This document shows, in pieces, positions 16,955-24,108 of a stretch of 64,000 nucleotides of DNA. Numbering within the stretch: position 1 is the first letter of the stretch; each line of letters starts with the position of its first letter. The translations under genes and the position numbers were made by a program. Source of the DNA: Bacillota bacterium. Lineage in GTDB: Bacteria; Sysuimicrobiota; Sysuimicrobiia; Sysuimicrobiales; Segetimicrobiaceae. The stretch is taken from contig JAJPJJ010000082.1 of NCBI GenBank assembly GCA_021324295.1, positions 77,092 to 141,091 on the forward strand, written 5' to 3'. Under the pieces are notes generated by a model. It worked only from the letters and a program-made list of their open reading frames with translations, ran no database searches and had not been told where the DNA came from.

Positions 16955-18073
16955 TCAGCGTGTCGTCGGGACGCCCTCCCGGAGGCAGGCCTCCAGCGCG
17001 CCCACCACACGCTGCATCCGCTCCAGCTGCGCCTGCGAGCCGAGGTGGCCGATGCGGATGACCTGCCCGGCGAGGTGCATGAGGCCGCCGGAGATCGCGA
17101 TCCGGTGCCGCGCCCGCAGCGTCCGGATCAGCGCGGTCGCGTCCACCCCCGCGGGGGGGTACGCGACGGTGACGGTCGGCGACGCCCACCGACGGTCGGC
17201 CAGCACCCGGAACCCCAGCCGTTCGAGGCCGTCGCGCAGGGCGGCCGCCGCGCGGCGGTGGCGTTCGAAGCGGGCCGTGAGGCCCTCGTCGAGGATGCGC
17301 CGCAGCGCGCGGTCGAGCGCGACGACGATGCTGCTCGGGATCGTCACCGGATACGGGTGGTGCGGCCACTCGCGCTCGTACTGCCGCCATCTCCGCAGGT
17401 TCAGGTACCAGCCGCACCCCGGCGACGTCTGGCGGTCGATGATGTCCCACCCCTCCTGCGCGACCGCCACGGGCGCGAGCCCGGCCGGAGTCTCCAGGCA
17501 CTTCTGCGAGGCGGAGGCGACGGCCGCGAGCCCCCACGCGTCGGTCTCCACCGGCGTCCCGGCGAGGGACGACACGGCGTCCACCACGGTCGCCGCGCCC
17601 GCCTCGCGCGCGGCCGATGCGAGCTCCGCGACGGGGTTGAGGACGCCGGTGGACGTATCGCTGTGCACCACCGCGAGCAGGTGGAGGTCCCGCGCGCGCA
17701 GCCACCGTCTCGTCTCCTCCGGATCGGCGGGCCGCTCCCACGGGACCTCCAGGGCCTCGACGTGGCGGGAGTACGAGCGGGCGATGTCGAGCAACCGGTG
17801 GCCGAAGAACCCGTTCACGACGACCCCGACGTGGCCGTCCGCGCCGGCCAGGCTGCCCAGCACCGCCTCGATCCCGCCGCTGCCCGAGGCCGGGATGGGA
17901 TACACCGACGCGGTGGTGGCGAAGACCCGGCGCAGACGGGCCGTGAACTCCCCATAGAAGGGAAGCCAGTCCGGGCCGTAGTGCTGCCGCACGGGCTCGG
18001 CCATCGCGGCGAGCACCTCGGCGCTGACGGGAACGGGGCCGGGAATGAGCAGCTCGATATCGTCGTGGGACAT
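16955..18073 (-). CDS. Class V PLP-dependent aminotransferase (alanine/serine-glyoxylate aminotransferase-like)
   Basis: 372 residues. It opens DIELLIPGPVPVSAEVLAAM, typical of the AGXT/SGA branch. PASGSGGIEAVLGSL binds the cofactor phosphate, DAVSSLAGTPVE carries the Asp that contacts the pyridine N, and ASASQKCLETPAGLA places the Schiff-base lysine at residue 191. ATG 18073 follows GGAGGGTATCG. It is 123 bases downstream of egtD on the same strand. Classical ergothioneine clusters include a PLP-dependent C-S lyase (EgtE) of this fold, so a lyase role is conceivable, but the sequence looks more like a glyoxylate transaminase. Confidence 0.82.
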   Translation of the reverse strand: MSHDDIELLIPGPVPVSAEVLAAMAEPVRQHYGPDWLPFYGEFTARLRRVFATTASVYPIPASGSGGIEAVLGSLAGADGHVGVVVNGFFGHRLLDIARSYSRHVEALEVPWERPADPEETRRWLRARDLHLLAVVHSDTSTGVLNPVAELASAAREAGAATVVDAVSSLAGTPVETDAWGLAAVASASQKCLETPAGLAPVAVAQEGWDIIDRQTSPGCGWYLNLRRWRQYEREWPHHPYPVTIPSSIVVALDRALRRILDEGLTARFERHRRAAAALRDGLERLGFRVLADRRWASPTVTVAYPPAGVDATALIRTLRARHRIAISGGLMHLAGQVIRIGHLGSQAQLERMQRVVGALEACLREGVPTTR

Positions 18074-18196: not shown

Positions 18197-19210
18197 TCAC
18201 CGAGACGCGGGCGCGCAGAGGTTCACGCTGAAGCGGCCGGCGGCGTCCACCCACCGCTGCTCGAGGCGCAGGCCGGCCTCGGACGCCAGCGCGTCGATCT
18301 CGGCGGGGGAGTACTTGTAGGAGTTCTCCGTGTGGATCGCCTCGCCCGGGGCGAACGCGATGGCGAGATCGAGGGCCTCGATGCGCACGCGCTGGCTACC
18401 CTCGCTCACCAGGTACATCTCGATCCGACCGACCTCCGCGTTGTACACCGCGCGGTGCAAGAAGCGCCCGGGGTCGAACCGGCCGCCGAGCTCGCGGTTG
18501 ATGCGCACCAGCAGGTTGCGGTTGAACCGTGCCGTGATCCCCTGGGCGTCGTCGTAGGCTGCTTCCAGGACCGCGCGGTCCTTGCGCAGATCGATACCGA
18601 GCAGCAGGCGGTCGTGCGCCGATACCGCCTCCCGGACGCGGCGCAGGAACTCCGCCGCCTCGGGCCGGTCCAGATTGCCGATGCTCGAGCCGAGCCACAG
18701 GATCAGCCTGGGGCGGTCCGCCTCCTCGGCCACGTGGCGGAGCCCGTCGGAGTACTCGCCTGCGACGGCGCGGATCTCCAGCGCGGGGTAGTCGGTGAGC
18801 AGCGCGCGCGCGCTGTCGAGGAGCGCGGGCCGGCAGATGTCCACCGGCATGTACCGCGCCGTCCCGTGGCGGCGCAGGAGCGCCTCGATGAGGACGCGGG
18901 TCTTCCGGGCGCTCCCGCTGCCGAGCTCGACGAGCGTGATCGGGCCACGGAACAGGGAGGCCAACTCGCCGGATCGCTCCTCGAGGATCGCCTGTTCGGC
19001 CCGCGTGAGGTAGTACTCGGGCAGCTCGCAGATCGCCTCGAACAGGCGCGAGCCTTCGCTGTCGTAGAAGTACCAGCACGGCAGGCGCTTGGGGTGCGCC
19101 AGCAGCCCCGCCCTGACGTCACGCGCGAACGCGGCGTGCTCGCCCGGGCCCCCGGCGTCGACGAGGGCGAAGCGCCCGGAGCGCGTCAGGATATCGTCCC
19201 GCTCGCGCAT
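18197..19210 (-). CDS. egtD: L-histidine N-alpha-methyltransferase EgtD (hercynine synthase)
   Basis: 337 residues, normal for EgtD, which trimethylates the alpha-amino group of histidine with three SAM to give hercynine. Visible signatures are PKRLPCWYFYDSEGSRLFE, ICELPEYYLTRAE, the SAM-binding LVELGSGSARKTRVLIEALL, MPVDICRPALLDSA, LWLGSSIGNLDRPEA and GRIEMYLVSEGSQ. Hercynine is the shared precursor of ergothioneine and selenoneine. The start at ATG 19210 lies 25 bases inside the end of the SenB-like gene, so the two are coupled. Position at the end of the SenA/SenB pair makes hercynine supply for selenoneine the likely job. Confidence 0.92.
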   Translation of the reverse strand: MRERDDILTRSGRFALVDAGGPGEHAAFARDVRAGLLAHPKRLPCWYFYDSEGSRLFEAICELPEYYLTRAEQAILEERSGELASLFRGPITLVELGSGSARKTRVLIEALLRRHGTARYMPVDICRPALLDSARALLTDYPALEIRAVAGEYSDGLRHVAEEADRPRLILWLGSSIGNLDRPEAAEFLRRVREAVSAHDRLLLGIDLRKDRAVLEAAYDDAQGITARFNRNLLVRINRELGGRFDPGRFLHRAVYNAEVGRIEMYLVSEGSQRVRIEALDLAIAFAPGEAIHTENSYKYSPAEIDALASEAGLRLEQRWVDAAGRFSVNLCAPASR

Positions 19211-20166
19211 GACACGGCGCAGAGCTCCCGCAGCAGCTCGTCCCACGCGAGCCGCTCGCGGGCGGGATCGACCAGCGGCCTCACGCGCTCGCACCCCTCC
19301 GCCAGCGCCCGGTAGAAGGCCGCATCCGTCTCCGCGCGCCGCAGCAGCTCGGCGAGCGCGCCGGTGTCCTCGACCGGGAAGTACCCGGGATACTCGGCGC
19401 CCAGGATCCCCATCGAGCCGGGGATCCGCGAGGCGAGCACGGGCACGCCGGAGGCGATCGCCTCGGAGAGCGCGTTTGCGCCGCCCTCCGTGCGCGAGCT
19501 GAGGACGAGGAGCCGGCTGCCCGCGAGGATGCGCAGCGCCCGCCAGCGCGGGCGCTCGCCGAGCCAGCGATAGCGGGGGTTGTCGGCCTGCTCGGCGAGG
19601 GCCTCCCGCTCCATCTCGGGGCTCAGCGCGGCTCCCAGGTGCACGATGCGGATCCGGGAGGAGGCGGGGAGCATCCGGGCCGCCCGCGCCGCGCGCAGCG
19701 GGTCCTTGACCGGCCGCAGGTGCGCGAGGACGCACACGTCGAAGGTGCCCGCCCGCGGCGCCCGCGCGCCCGGCGGCGGCGTGGCGGACTGGTAGATCAC
19801 CCTGGCCTTGTCGTGCAGGTGCGCCGGGAGCTGCGCGATGCCCAGCGGCTGCAGCAGCACGAGCCGGGAGGCCATCTCCAGGGCCTGCTGCGCGAGCGGG
19901 TCGGTGTCCAGGTCCCCGTAGAGATCGGTGCCGGTCAGGACCACGACGAGCGGCCCGCCGGGGTGCCGGTCGCGGTAGCGCGCCGCGGATGAGAAGCTGC
20001 GCCGCGCGTGGAGCGCCACCAGCAGGTCGCAGCGGTCGTCGCGGTACTCCTCGCGGACGGCGACCCGGTGCCCGAGCGCCCGGAGGATGCGCGTCCACCG
20101 GATCGCGGTGACCCGGTTGCCGCTGCGCGAGCCGGGCGGGGCCGGCGTGATCAGGCAGACGCGCAT
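19186..20166 (-). CDS. senB: SenB-type selenosugar synthase (TIGR04348 glycosyltransferase family)
   Basis: 326 residues with the GT4-like fold. The N-terminus MRVCLITPAPPGSRSGNRVT then AIRWTRILRALGHRVAV, together with LLVALHARRSFSSAARY and VVVLTGTDLYGDL, closely fits the TIGR04348 family as I recall it. In Variovorax this family was shown to be SenB, which makes 1-seleno-glucose-type sugars from UDP-sugar and selenophosphate. The C-terminal donor site appears as SSRTEGGANALSEAIASGVP. The gene sits between the SenA/EgtB-like gene (63 bases upstream) and egtD (overlapping by 25 bases), the arrangement expected for selenoneine synthesis. The selenophosphate synthetase partner (SenC/SelD) is not in the window. 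Confidence 0.82.
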   Translation of the reverse strand: MRVCLITPAPPGSRSGNRVTAIRWTRILRALGHRVAVREEYRDDRCDLLVALHARRSFSSAARYRDRHPGGPLVVVLTGTDLYGDLDTDPLAQQALEMASRLVLLQPLGIAQLPAHLHDKARVIYQSATPPPGARAPRAGTFDVCVLAHLRPVKDPLRAARAARMLPASSRIRIVHLGAALSPEMEREALAEQADNPRYRWLGERPRWRALRILAGSRLLVLSSRTEGGANALSEAIASGVPVLASRIPGSMGILGAEYPGYFPVEDTGALAELLRRAETDAAFYRALAEGCERVRPLVDPARERLAWDELLRELCAVSCASGTIS

Positions 20167-20229: not shown

Positions 20230-21594
20230 TCAGCCGCCCGCCCTGCAGGTGCGGAATCCCGCCAGCACGTCGCGCCGGTCCGGCGTGAAGTAGTTGCGCC
20301 AGGTGTTGCGCAGCATCCGCGAGCGCGTCGCCCAGCAGCCCCCGCGCAGGACCTTCCGCGTCCCGAACCAGGGCTCGGAATACTCCTTGTACGGATCCGG
20401 GGTGAAGCCCGGATAGGGCAGGAACGTGCTGCTCGTCCACTCCCAGACGTTGCCGATCATCTGCCGGCATCCGAACGCGCTGTCGCCCGCGGGAAGGGCG
20501 CCGACATCCAGACAGCCCATGGCCTGCCAGTCCAGGTTCGCGCGCCGCGGCGTCGGGGGCTCGTTCCCCCACGGGAAGCGCCGCTTCGCACCGGACAGCC
20601 GTGCGCCGCCCGGCCCCGGATCCGACGCCGCGGCGGCTTCCCACTCCGCCTCCGTCGGCAGCCGGCGGCCCGCCCACCGGCAGTAGGCGTCCGCCTCGTA
20701 CCAGTTGACGTGAATGACCGGGCGGTGCGGCTCGAGCGCGCGCCACTCGTCGAAATCCCGGCGCAGCCAGGCGCCGGCGTCGCGCCGCCAGTACACCGGA
20801 TGCTCCGCGCGGGCCTGCTCGCGCCACGCCCACCCGTCCTCGCTCCACAGCTCACGCCGCCGATAGCCGCCGTCGTCCACGAACGCCGCGAACTCGGCCT
20901 GGGTGACGGGCGCGCGCGCGATCGCAAACGGCCCCACCTCCACCGGGTGCGCCCACTTCTCGTTGTCGAAGACGAACGGCTCGTCCGGCGTGGCGCCCAG
21001 CGCGAGCGTGCCGCCCGGCACCTCCACGTCGCCCGGGAGCGGCCCACCACCGGCCGCGCCCCGGGGATCGCGCTGTCCGAGCTCCCGCGCCGGGGCGTCC
21101 GATCCGGCGCCGGTGCGAAACAGGCGCGGCGCGGGATACGCCAGCGTCTGCCGCGTGTAGGTGAACGCCTCCGTGTGCATATCCTCGTGGAACACCGTGT
21201 AGAGGACGTGGTACGCCAGCTCCGGACCCGGCGCGCCACGGGCGAGCACCTCGCACACGCGGTCCCGCACCGCGCGCATGTAGGCCAGGGTCTCCTCGCG
21301 GGACGGCAGCGGCAGGTCCCATCGCGCGTCGTGCGGCACCGCCATCGAGTCGTACAGCGCGTCCGCATCGGCGCGGATCGGTTGCTCGCCGCACACGTGC
21401 CGCAGGACCCACTTCTCCTGGAACCACGCCATGTGCCCGATCTCCCAGAGCATCGGGTTGACGATCGAGAGGCGCGGCCCCATCAGTTGCTCGTCGGTGA
21501 GATCGGCGACCAGCTCAAACGTGCGCTCGCGAGCATCCCGCACGTACTCGGCCAGGTCCTGCGCGGTCACGGTGGCATCGAGGGGGAGGACCAT
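20230..21594 (-). CDS. senA: SenA/EgtB-like non-haem iron oxidase (selenoneine or ergothioneine synthase)
   Basis: 454 residues in two domains. The N-terminal DinB-like half (~1-150) gives the iron ligands: His54 in IGHMAWFQEKW and His136/His140 in FHEDMHTEAFTY. The C-terminal half (~190-454) is an FGE-sulfatase domain with VHPVEVGPF-like start, HVNWYEADAYCRWAGRRLP, MIGNVWEWTSSTFLPYPGF, KVLRGGCW and the ending AGFRTCRAGG. EgtB couples hercynine to a thiol, SenA to a selenosugar. The tight link to senB favours SenA; sequence alone cannot exclude EgtB. ATG 21594 follows AGGAGGTCGCTG, an excellent ribosome site. It is the first gene of the senA-senB-egtD unit. Confidence 0.8.
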   Translation of the reverse strand: MVLPLDATVTAQDLAEYVRDARERTFELVADLTDEQLMGPRLSIVNPMLWEIGHMAWFQEKWVLRHVCGEQPIRADADALYDSMAVPHDARWDLPLPSREETLAYMRAVRDRVCEVLARGAPGPELAYHVLYTVFHEDMHTEAFTYTRQTLAYPAPRLFRTGAGSDAPARELGQRDPRGAAGGGPLPGDVEVPGGTLALGATPDEPFVFDNEKWAHPVEVGPFAIARAPVTQAEFAAFVDDGGYRRRELWSEDGWAWREQARAEHPVYWRRDAGAWLRRDFDEWRALEPHRPVIHVNWYEADAYCRWAGRRLPTEAEWEAAAASDPGPGGARLSGAKRRFPWGNEPPTPRRANLDWQAMGCLDVGALPAGDSAFGCRQMIGNVWEWTSSTFLPYPGFTPDPYKEYSEPWFGTRKVLRGGCWATRSRMLRNTWRNYFTPDRRDVLAGFRTCRAGG

Positions 21595-21965: not shown

Positions 21966-23048
21966 CTACAGGCCGAACGCGTGCGCGAGCAGCCCCGCGA
22001 GCAGCCCGGTGGCCGCGGTCAGGCCGCCCAGGAGCGCGAGCACGCGCACGGGGAGCACGCGCGCGAGCATGAGCAGAGACGGCAGGCTCACCGGCGCGAG
22101 CGTCAGCAGCAGGACGCCGGCCGGACCGGCCCCCACCCCGGCCGCCAGCATCGTCTGGATGATCGGGATCTCGCCCGCCGTGGGAATGACGAAGAGCGTC
22201 CCCAGGACCGCGAGCGCCGCGAGGACGAGGGGATCGCCGCCCAGGTGCAGGCCGCCGGATGGGAAGAAGAACGCGCGCGCCGCCCCCAGCAGCGCAACCA
22301 TCACGATGTACTCGGGCGTGAGGCGCACCGCGAGTCGCAGCAGGCTGCGCAGCCAGCTGGACGCCCCAGGCTGTTCTCCCGCCTCCGCGGCGGTCCGCGG
22401 CGGAACCTCAGGCGCGGCGGCGTCCGGGGCGTTCCGGCCCGTCTGCGCGACGAGGCGGGATGCCAGGAGGGCGCCGCCGAGGACGAGCGCGACGCCCAGC
22501 GCCACCCGCAGGGCCGCCCAGGGCCAGCCGAGCGTCAGCACGATGAAGGCCAGGACGGCGGGATTCAGCGTGGGGTTCCCCAGCCACAGCGCTGCCGTGC
22601 TGCCGATCGAGGCTCCCTTCTTCCGGAGGCTCACGGCCACCGGTGCGGCGCAGCACGTTCACATCATGCCCGGCAGCGCGAGCACGCCGCCGAGCACGGA
22701 CGAGCGCAGGGTCCCGCTGCAGAGCACACGGGTCAGCCAGTCGCGGGGGAGCAGCGTCTCGATCGTGGCGGCCAGCAGCAACCCGAGCACCCACGCCTGC
22801 CACACCGACTTGAAGTAGCTCTGCGCGTACTGGATGGCGGCAGCCACCGATGGCGAGGGCGCCGCGACGCCGGTGCTGAAGACGATGTTGCTGCCGATCG
22901 AGTGCCGGACGGCCGCGGCGAGGGCCCGGTGGAAATACGGGTTCCACTTGACGATGAACAGCCCTAGGACCGCGATCGCGAGCAGGACGCCGAGGCCGCG
23001 CAGGTGTTCCGGAAGCCGGCCCGGTGCCGTCGCCGCTCGATCTTCCAT
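21966..23048 (-). CDS. YraQ/ArsP-type (DUF318) permease with in-frame TGA, candidate selenoprotein (Sec130)
   Basis: Read from ATG 23048 (MEDRAATAPGRLPEHLRGLG), the frame holds a single stop, TGA at 22659-22661, and then continues in the same frame to 21966. That gives 360 residues with the TGA as residue 130. Both halves are needed for one permease. The first has helices such as VLLAIAVLGLFIVKW and WQAWVLGLLLAATIETLL. The second carries APVAVSLRKKGAS, LWLGNPTLNPAVLAFIVLTL and a second hydrophobic half. Around the TGA the sequence is LPGMM-U-TCCAAPVAV; in relatives I recall a Cys at this place (MMCTCC). The family exports or moves organic metalloid species through conserved Cys residues. The neighbouring selenium genes make selenocysteine insertion more likely than decay. 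A nonsense mutation or read error remains possible. Confidence 0.72.
22629..22661 (-). promoter_or_regulatory. In-frame TGA with candidate bacterial SECIS hairpin
   Basis: The TGA occupies 22661-22659. Directly downstream on the mRNA, bases 8 to 33 (22654 to 22629) can form an imperfect hairpin: GCU pairs with AGC, then G-U, C-G and G-C, then two C-G pairs, with single-base bulges, closing an 8-base loop that begins with G (GCACCGGU). Bacterial SECIS elements are stem-loops at this place with a G early in the loop. Here the loop starts 12 bases after the TGA, slightly closer than usual. The fold was drawn by hand in a GC-rich sequence where hairpins are easy to find, so the support is modest. 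Confidence 0.35.
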
Positions 23049-23117: not shown

Positions 23118-23132
23118 ATACCGAGTTGGTAT
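23118..23132. promoter_or_regulatory. LysR-type operator box 1 (T-N11-A palindrome)
   Basis: ATACC-GAGTT-GGTAT is a perfect 5+5 inverted repeat containing the T-N11-A core typical of LysR-family binding sites. It lies in the 145-base divergent region between the permease (start 23048, minus) and the LysR gene (start 23194, plus), in an AT-richer island unlike the surroundings. Confidence 0.65.
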
Positions 23133-23149
23133 GCTACGCTCAAGCGTCC

Positions 23150-23162
23150 TACCGATTCGGTA
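23150..23162. promoter_or_regulatory. LysR-type operator box 2 (T-N11-A palindrome)
   Basis: TACCGATTCGGTA is a second T-N11-A palindrome that repeats the consensus of box 1 (TACCGA-N-T-Y/T-GGTA). The centres of the two boxes are 31 bases apart, three helical turns, so a LysR tetramer could bind both on one face. It lies 31 bases before the LysR start codon, fitting autoregulation. Confidence 0.65.
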
Positions 23163-23193
23163 TGTCCCTCGGACGCACCGAGGGGATCGCCAG

Positions 23194-24108
23194 ATGGAGG
23201 AGCCGAGCGAGCTCCAGGCGTTTCTGCGCGTGGCCGCCTGCGGCAGCCTGACCGCCGCGGCCCGGGAGCTCGGCCTCACCCAGCCCGGCCTGAGCCGCCA
23301 GATGCAGAAGCTGGAGCGGCGGCTCCAGGTGTCCCTCTTCGCGCGGACCCCCGCCGGCGTCACCCTCACGCCGGCGGGCGAGCGGTTCCGGGCCTACGCC
23401 GAGGAACTGCTGGCACGTCACCGGCAGCTGCTCGACGAGCTGCGCGGGACGGAGGCCGGCCTCGCGGGCACGCTGCGCGTGGCGGCCAGCACGACGCCGG
23501 GAGAGTTCCTCGTGCCGCGGCTCGTCGCGGAGTTCACCGGACGCCACCCGGACGTGCGGCCGGTCGTCTTCACCGCCGACTCCGAAGAGGTCACGAGCGA
23601 GCTGCTCGAGCGACGCTGGGACGTGGGCTTCGTCGGCGCGCGGATCAAGCGGGACGGGCTGCGCTTCGATCCGGTGGCGGACGACGAGATCGTCCTCGCC
23701 GTGCCGGCGCACCACCCGCTGGCCCCGGCGGCGGAGGTCCCGCTCGGGGCGCTCGCCGGTCAGCGCTTCGTGGACCGAGAAGGCGGCTCCGGCACCCTGC
23801 TGAGCGTCCGCCGCGCGCTGGCCGAGCGCGGGCTCCAGCTTCCACCGTACCGGGTGAGCATGACGCTTACCACGACGCAGGCGATCGTGTCGGCGGTGCG
23901 GGCCGGCTACGGGATCGGGTTCGTGTCCTCGATGGCGCTCGCGGATCGCCCAGATGGGCGCGTCGTGGGGGTGCGCCTCGCGGGCGTCCCGCTGCGCCGC
24001 ACGCTCTACATGGTGCGCGAGAAGCGGCGGGTCCTCTCCCCCGTCGCGCGCCGCTTTGCCGAGTTCGTCCTCGCTCGGTCCGCGCCGCCGGGCCGGCCGT
24101 CGCGCTGA
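23194..24108 (+). CDS. LysR-family transcriptional regulator, divergent to the TGA-containing permease
   Basis: 304 residues. The N-terminal winged helix is MEEPSELQAFLRVAACGSLT with AARELGLTQPGLSRQMQKLE as recognition helix region. The effector domain follows from ~90 (LRVAASTTPGEFLVPRLVAEF), the CysB/CbbR-like type. ATG 23194 has AGGGGA upstream. Two matching T-N11-A operators lie between this gene and the permease, so it very likely controls that gene and itself, and perhaps the selenoneine genes beyond. LysR proteins tied to selenium metabolism are known in other bacteria; the effector here is unknown. Confidence 0.88.
   Translation: MEEPSELQAFLRVAACGSLTAAARELGLTQPGLSRQMQKLERRLQVSLFARTPAGVTLTPAGERFRAYAEELLARHRQLLDELRGTEAGLAGTLRVAASTTPGEFLVPRLVAEFTGRHPDVRPVVFTADSEEVTSELLERRWDVGFVGARIKRDGLRFDPVADDEIVLAVPAHHPLAPAAEVPLGALAGQRFVDREGGSGTLLSVRRALAERGLQLPPYRVSMTLTTTQAIVSAVRAGYGIGFVSSMALADRPDGRVVGVRLAGVPLRRTLYMVREKRRVLSPVARRFAEFVLARSAPPGRPSR

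Follow-up and report, generated by a model that had tools for sequence, protein, structure and literature searches.

According to a 2026 review (PMC13188914) and a 2024 study (PMC11097638), a dedicated, high-affinity transporter for selenium has yet to be identified. The best candidate put forward earlier, YedE/YeeE (Lin et al. 2015, PMC5322559), is a membrane protein with a key Cys and a genome-context link to SelD; a YeeE/YedE selenoprotein has been listed (PMC13188914), and deletion of yedE in Methanococcus did not lead to loss of selenium use (PMC11097638). Within the PF03773 superfamily, the SO_0444 family Cu/Zn efflux transporter (NF033936) is a GenBank-annotated selenoprotein with a UxC motif (PMC13188914, Table 1, 2026), and E. 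coli YraQ is a permease of unknown function that is not known to have any role in selenium metabolism. A further efflux transporter is SaoE (NF040736); other Sao components are listed as selenoproteins (PMC13188914). Selenoneine biosynthesis is encoded by senA-senB-senC clusters, for which we found no mention of a Sec permease in the literature searched. Here, we describe a PF03773 permease with a predicted selenocysteine (Sec), encoded beside selenoneine genes, and compare it with these systems.

The gene lies in a contiguous stretch of 64,000 nucleotides of bacterial DNA, referred to here as the window, and its two central features are as follows.

21966..23048, minus strand: PF03773 (ArsP_1/YraQ-type) permease, a predicted selenoprotein of 360 aa (translation, PF03773 match and AlphaFold2 model)
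22659..22661, minus strand: TGA codon 130, predicted selenocysteine in LPGMM-U-TCC-AAPVAV (column shared with TGA and Cys homologues)

Translation of the minus-strand frame from 23048 to 21966 gives 360 codons, with TGA at codon 130 as the sole internal stop and TAG as the terminal one, and the product obtained by reading through the TGA passes the Pfam model PF03773 (ArsP_1) with 87.3 bits against a gathering cut-off of 32.3. The original prediction, made from sequence alone, was correct in both of its claims here, namely that one frame is broken only by this TGA and that its two halves together form a single DUF318/YraQ-ArsP-type permease. The AlphaFold2 model is of a confident membrane permease fold (mean pLDDT 87, pTM 0.87), in which U130 is placed at a helix break immediately preceding helix 131-143, while a comparable break in the second half bears a conserved PTAGE motif. 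In comparisons with family models, the SO_0444 profile is matched in its C-terminal half by the N-terminal half of several relatives, which is consistent with an internal repeat. As part of our best explanation, we take the protein to be a membrane permease built of two repeats and belonging to the PF03773/YraQ superfamily. A structure search of the PDB and viral models returned no significant fold match, and a profile search found no match among PDB sequences.

The permease shares the PF03773 superfamily with SO_0444 and shows detectable homology to SaoE across most of its length, but is a member of neither family, scoring 47 bits against NF033936 (cut-off 300) and 53 bits against NF040736 (cut-off 325); none of the genes beside it was identified as another Sao component. 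In an alignment with the SO_0444-like protein L021, U130 falls on the first of the two Cys in the C-x-C, a position that would fit the UxC motif of SO_0444, although we have not verified that this is the SO_0444 Cys replaced by Sec. With SO_0444 on record as a UxC selenoprotein, and given this alignment, Sec in the PF03773 superfamily is not new, and the original claim that no selenoprotein was known in this permease family needs limiting. The differences lie in the motif, U-T-C-C as against C-C-C-S in the SO_0444-like protein, and in the context, the subfamily described here occurring in selenium operons whereas SO_0444 is assigned to Cu/Zn. Closer to hand is E. coli YraQ, 45% identical over 331 residues, which carries SLPGMMCTCCAAPVA at the motif with Cys in place of Sec and belongs to the same subfamily as the Cys forms discussed below. 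YedE/YeeE resembles the permease in being a membrane protein with a key Cys and a link to SelD, but belongs to a separate family, PF04143. In the literature searched, which excluded subscription papers, we found no description of this subfamily, of its selenium operons or of its Sec form.

Evidence that the TGA is not an accident of one gene comes from its homologues. Six of these, 47-53% identical to the window permease and drawn from two phyla, Rokubacteria and Chloroflexota, have TGA at the identical column (L023, L024, L147, L162/L165, L163 and L164/L166). In a genome scan for the permease covering 84,980 species, from which the 80 best loci were retained, 79 have Cys at the column and one has TGA (L147, a Candidatus Rokuibacteriota bin); about 20 further relatives outside the scan also have Cys. 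Among 400 genomes searched in the Chloroflexota group, nine permeases were recovered, three of them with TGA at this column, and 399 further genomes yielded 16 permeases, none with TGA. Within the taxonomic family of the window genome, two genomes have a TGA permease about 50% identical to that of the window, and four genes have Cys. Every full-length relative thus has either Cys (TGC or TGT) or TGA at this column, as anticipated in the original prediction, which had expected Cys in relatives, and Sec and Cys must have interchanged at least four times on the tree (on starred branches). The presence of TGA at this exact column in six homologues from other assemblies, with TGC or TGT in the rest, takes it beyond chance.

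These data bear directly on two simpler explanations. The first is that the gene is a pseudogene, with the TGA a true stop and the permease decaying, for which one can cite the single in-frame stop and the weak hairpin in the window (see below). Against it, no other decay lesion was found in the window gene, and six other genes have TGA at the same column. Substitution rates in L023 and L024 show purifying selection on either side of the codon, with dN/dS of 0.19/0.88 on the 5' side and 0.16/0.80 on the 3' side, or about 0.2 on both. We regard decay as very unlikely and reject it on the basis of the shared column and the selection data. The second explanation is a sequencing or assembly error in which TGC has been read as TGA, a concern given that the source of each of the seven TGA copies appears to be either a draft assembly or a metagenome bin. 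However, the seven assemblies are independent, the apparent error affects only this codon and only SelD-bearing genomes, and seven independent TGAs occupying one column make such an error so improbable that we consider it all but excluded.

A bacterial selenoprotein gene is expected to carry a hairpin after the TGA, and the original prediction stated that the element following the TGA in the permease gene can fold into one.

22623..22643, minus strand: candidate bacterial SECIS hairpin CCGGUGGC-CGUGA-GCCUCCGG, with one U-U mismatch and its apical loop 23 nt past the TGA

The hairpin is present, but is no better than chance when compared with synonymous-codon shuffles (p about 0.1-0.5), and an Rfam search of the window found no known RNA. 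It is the weakest SECIS among the seven TGA genes, and is the weakest point of the selenoprotein case for the window itself. Five of the other six (L023, L024, L147, L165 and L166) have hairpins of 7-10 bp with a GG(C/U) apical loop beginning 17-20 nt past the TGA, and L163 has one of 6 bp. L023, L024 and L147 share a common hairpin of 8-10 bp that exceeds synonymous-codon shuffles in the best windows (p 0.005-0.05). Between L023 (CCCCACC-GGC-GGUGGGG) and L147 (CCCCAGU-GGC-GCUGGGG) there is a compensatory change from C-G to G-C, together with a change from C-G to U-G, and L165 (CAGCCCC-GGU-GGGGCUG) and L166 (CAGCGCC-GGU-GGCGCUG) likewise differ by a compensatory C-G to G-C change; in both groups, these pair changes arise from amino-acid changes. 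In most SelD genes of the genomes with a TGA permease there is a comparable hairpin, its loop being three bases long.

The original prediction would have been refuted by the absence of selA, selB, selC and selD from the genome or by further decay mutations in the gene, and no refuting condition that was tested held: the second is answered above by the lack of other lesions and the persistence of purifying selection beyond the TGA, and the first by the Sec machinery of the window's own genome, where all four genes are found. There is a tRNA-Sec (selC; 72.6 bits, anticodon TCA), a SelB (357 bits), and a SelD that has its own in-frame TGA. SelA, about 50% identical, adjoins SelB and is split by an apparent frameshift. 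The selA gene (genome G000, contig C106, L040:5087-6375) occupies two frames around L040:5470-5500, with an intact selB downstream. We attribute the frameshift to a probable assembly error; this is unproven, and a real frameshift is not excluded. Across relatives, tRNA-Sec is present in 13 of 14 related genomes and SelD in 21 of 22 permease genomes. In Chloroflexota, SelD is found in all nine permease genomes, but since it is nearly universal there (314 of 400 genomes), its co-occurrence with the permease is uninformative in that group. Taken with the shared column, these data strongly support the reading of codon 130 as selenocysteine, which we consider very likely even in the absence of any detection of the protein.

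The immediate neighbours of the permease, on the same strand and in the order permease, senA, senB, egtD, are accompanied by a divergent regulator.

20230..21594, minus strand: senA, selenoneine synthase (NF041186, 533 bits, cut-off 420)
19186..20166, minus strand: senB, selenosugar synthase (TIGR04348, 398 bits, cut-off 300)
18197..19210, minus strand (start estimated from the reading frame): egtD, L-histidine N-alpha-methyltransferase (TIGR03438, 380 bits, cut-off 291)
23194..24108, plus strand: divergent LysR-type regulator near the selenium-associated LysR family (NF040786, 231 bits, below the cut-off of 250)
23118..23163, no strand assigned: a pair of palindromes, ATACCGAGTTGGTAT and TACCGATTCGGTAT, as candidates for LysR boxes (consensus match only)

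The original prediction placed the permease upstream of senA/senB/egtD-like genes, and all three now exceed curated cut-offs; the adjacency of SenA and SenB above their cut-offs meets the criterion for a selenoneine biosynthesis cluster. In comparison with senA-senB-senC, the window has senA, senB and egtD, with a Sec permease and a LysR regulator as additional components. The regulator is 59-67% identical to the LysR proteins of L165 and L166, and its orthologues in Chloroflexota are likewise divergent from the permease. The near-identical palindromes ATACCGAGTTGGTAT and TACCGATTCGGTAT lie about 31 bp apart in the intergenic region that forms the shared promoter of lysR and the permease, and are absent in L165 and L166. 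Directly 3' of egtD is a class V aminotransferase gene (16955-18073, minus strand), with pyridoxamine-pyruvate transaminase as its top match (224 of 600 bits) and weak matches to EgtE and Sec-lyase.

In the tree, the window permease clusters with Chloroflexota sequences (support 100/99) and apart from the permeases of its taxonomic family, although the window SenA shares 74% identity with the SenA of G005, a genome from that family. This discordance suggests that the permease may have been replaced horizontally, a possibility and no more.

The link to selenium extends well beyond the window, and is shown by genome context for the whole permease subfamily, Cys forms included. A SelD, SelU, SelA or SelB gene lies within 6 kb of the permease in 57 of the 80 best loci, and about a quarter have no sel gene within that distance; these loci are not independent of one another, but the linkage recurs in several lineages from at least four phyla. 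Among the Cys forms, Paraburkholderia has a selD-selU-permease operon, many Burkholderia and Caballeronia have selU-permease, the permease adjoins selA/selB/selD in Dyella, Luteibacter and Azospirillum, and in Paenibacillus selD-selU is divergent from it. Matches in plasmid records were all partial with respect to the query; a single one was inspected with its annotation, and its neighbouring genes are unrelated to selenium.

The Sec form is tied more specifically to selenoneine. It lies immediately 5' of senA-senB-egtD in the window genome and in G005, and immediately 5' of a senA truncated by the contig end in G004, while in the Chloroflexota locus L166 it sits amid senB-senA-lysR / permease / egtB-selD-egtD. 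Of seven Sec-form genomes, five have a SenA above its cut-off (in one case split over two contigs), versus none of 18 Cys-form genomes checked (Fisher p about 0.0004, calculated by hand and uncorrected for kinship). In L147, the Sec permease is directly 3' of SelD, with a selenium LysR nearby (NF040786, 317 bits, above the cut-off of 250). A SenA/SenB-like pair in L147 had been considered as a second selenoneine cluster and was dropped, since the family models identify an FGE-domain protein and a GPMC glycosyltransferase. The stretch L166:7868-11528, in which SenA, EgtB, a TGA-containing SelD and EgtD surround the Sec permease, has the appearance of a combined selenoneine/ergothioneine cluster, and is where the full selenoneine cluster occurs together with SelD.

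Both G004 and G005 have a separate Cys copy near DoxD and radical SAM genes in addition to the Sec copy adjoining senA, an arrangement that suggests two roles. More generally, the Cys paralogues of Rokubacteria adjoin DoxD, radical SAM or unrelated genes, which counts against the selenium reading. At L033:5516-6151 and L034:5438-6073, a DoxD-like gene follows the Cys paralogue and a radical SAM gene lies further on. These neighbours raise the possibility of a sulfur role for the paralogue.

That the permease is a selenoprotein does not of itself fix its substrate, and a rival view is that it pumps soft metals or metalloids (Cu, Zn, As, Hg or organometals) out of the cell, with Sec improving metal binding. 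A metal substrate is possible because named members of the superfamily have been assigned to efflux, whether of Cu/Zn, of arsenicals or of other substrates, the nearest families being SO_0444 and SaoE and the Pfam family being ArsP_1. However, both of the former score far under their cut-offs, as given above, and no metal-resistance gene was identified in the annotated neighbourhoods, whereas selenium genes recur there in at least four phyla; we therefore consider metal efflux unlikely. The original suggestion of a transporter for a selenium species is strengthened by this operon context, but transport is still inferred from it alone, without a transport assay.

Our preferred explanation is that UGA at codon 130 is decoded as Sec by the host SelA/SelB/SelC/SelD, giving a full-length selenoprotein, and that this is a permease for a selenium species. 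The U-T-C-C motif at the helix break would have the PTAGE motif at the second-half break as its counterpart, and a selenium species would cross the inner membrane through transient Se-Se or Se-S bonding to a U-x-C-C relay. The permease may in this way supply SelD, SelU and the selenoneine pathway, or may balance them through export. We lean towards this combined explanation by a modest margin only, since transport, relay chemistry, substrate and direction are all inferred.

With regard to direction, the permease might work outwards, removing selenium that is in excess or toxic, or releasing an end product such as selenoneine, instead of importing selenium. Export is a possibility that finds support in the annotation of superfamily relatives as efflux proteins, for which reason it is not excluded, and in the tie between the Sec form and selenoneine genes. 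Against export of selenoneine, Cys forms occur in selD-selU or selA/selB settings that yield no small selenium compound, so that handling of inorganic or reduced selenium fits better. Import feeding SelD is slightly favoured over export because the Cys forms accompany selD, selU and selA/selB.

Whichever direction applies, these results single out a permease subfamily with genomic links to Sec, to selenouridine and, in its Sec form, to selenoneine, and the recurrence of its relatives in selenium-using operons makes it a good candidate for the unidentified dedicated selenium transporter. The exchange of Sec and Cys at one column marks a likely substrate-contact residue in a superfamily for which we found no solved structure, and the close E. 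coli relative yraQ makes the subfamily testable now. A bolder reading, to which we give slightly less credence than to its falling short, is that the subfamily is a dedicated bacterial selenium transporter, which accompanies SelD, SelU, SelA/SelB or selenoneine genes across several phyla, and that in certain Rokubacteria and Chloroflexota the transporter itself depends on Sec in the active site. If so, there may be a feedback loop in these organisms, in which the supply of selenium and the synthesis of its own transporter would each depend on the other.
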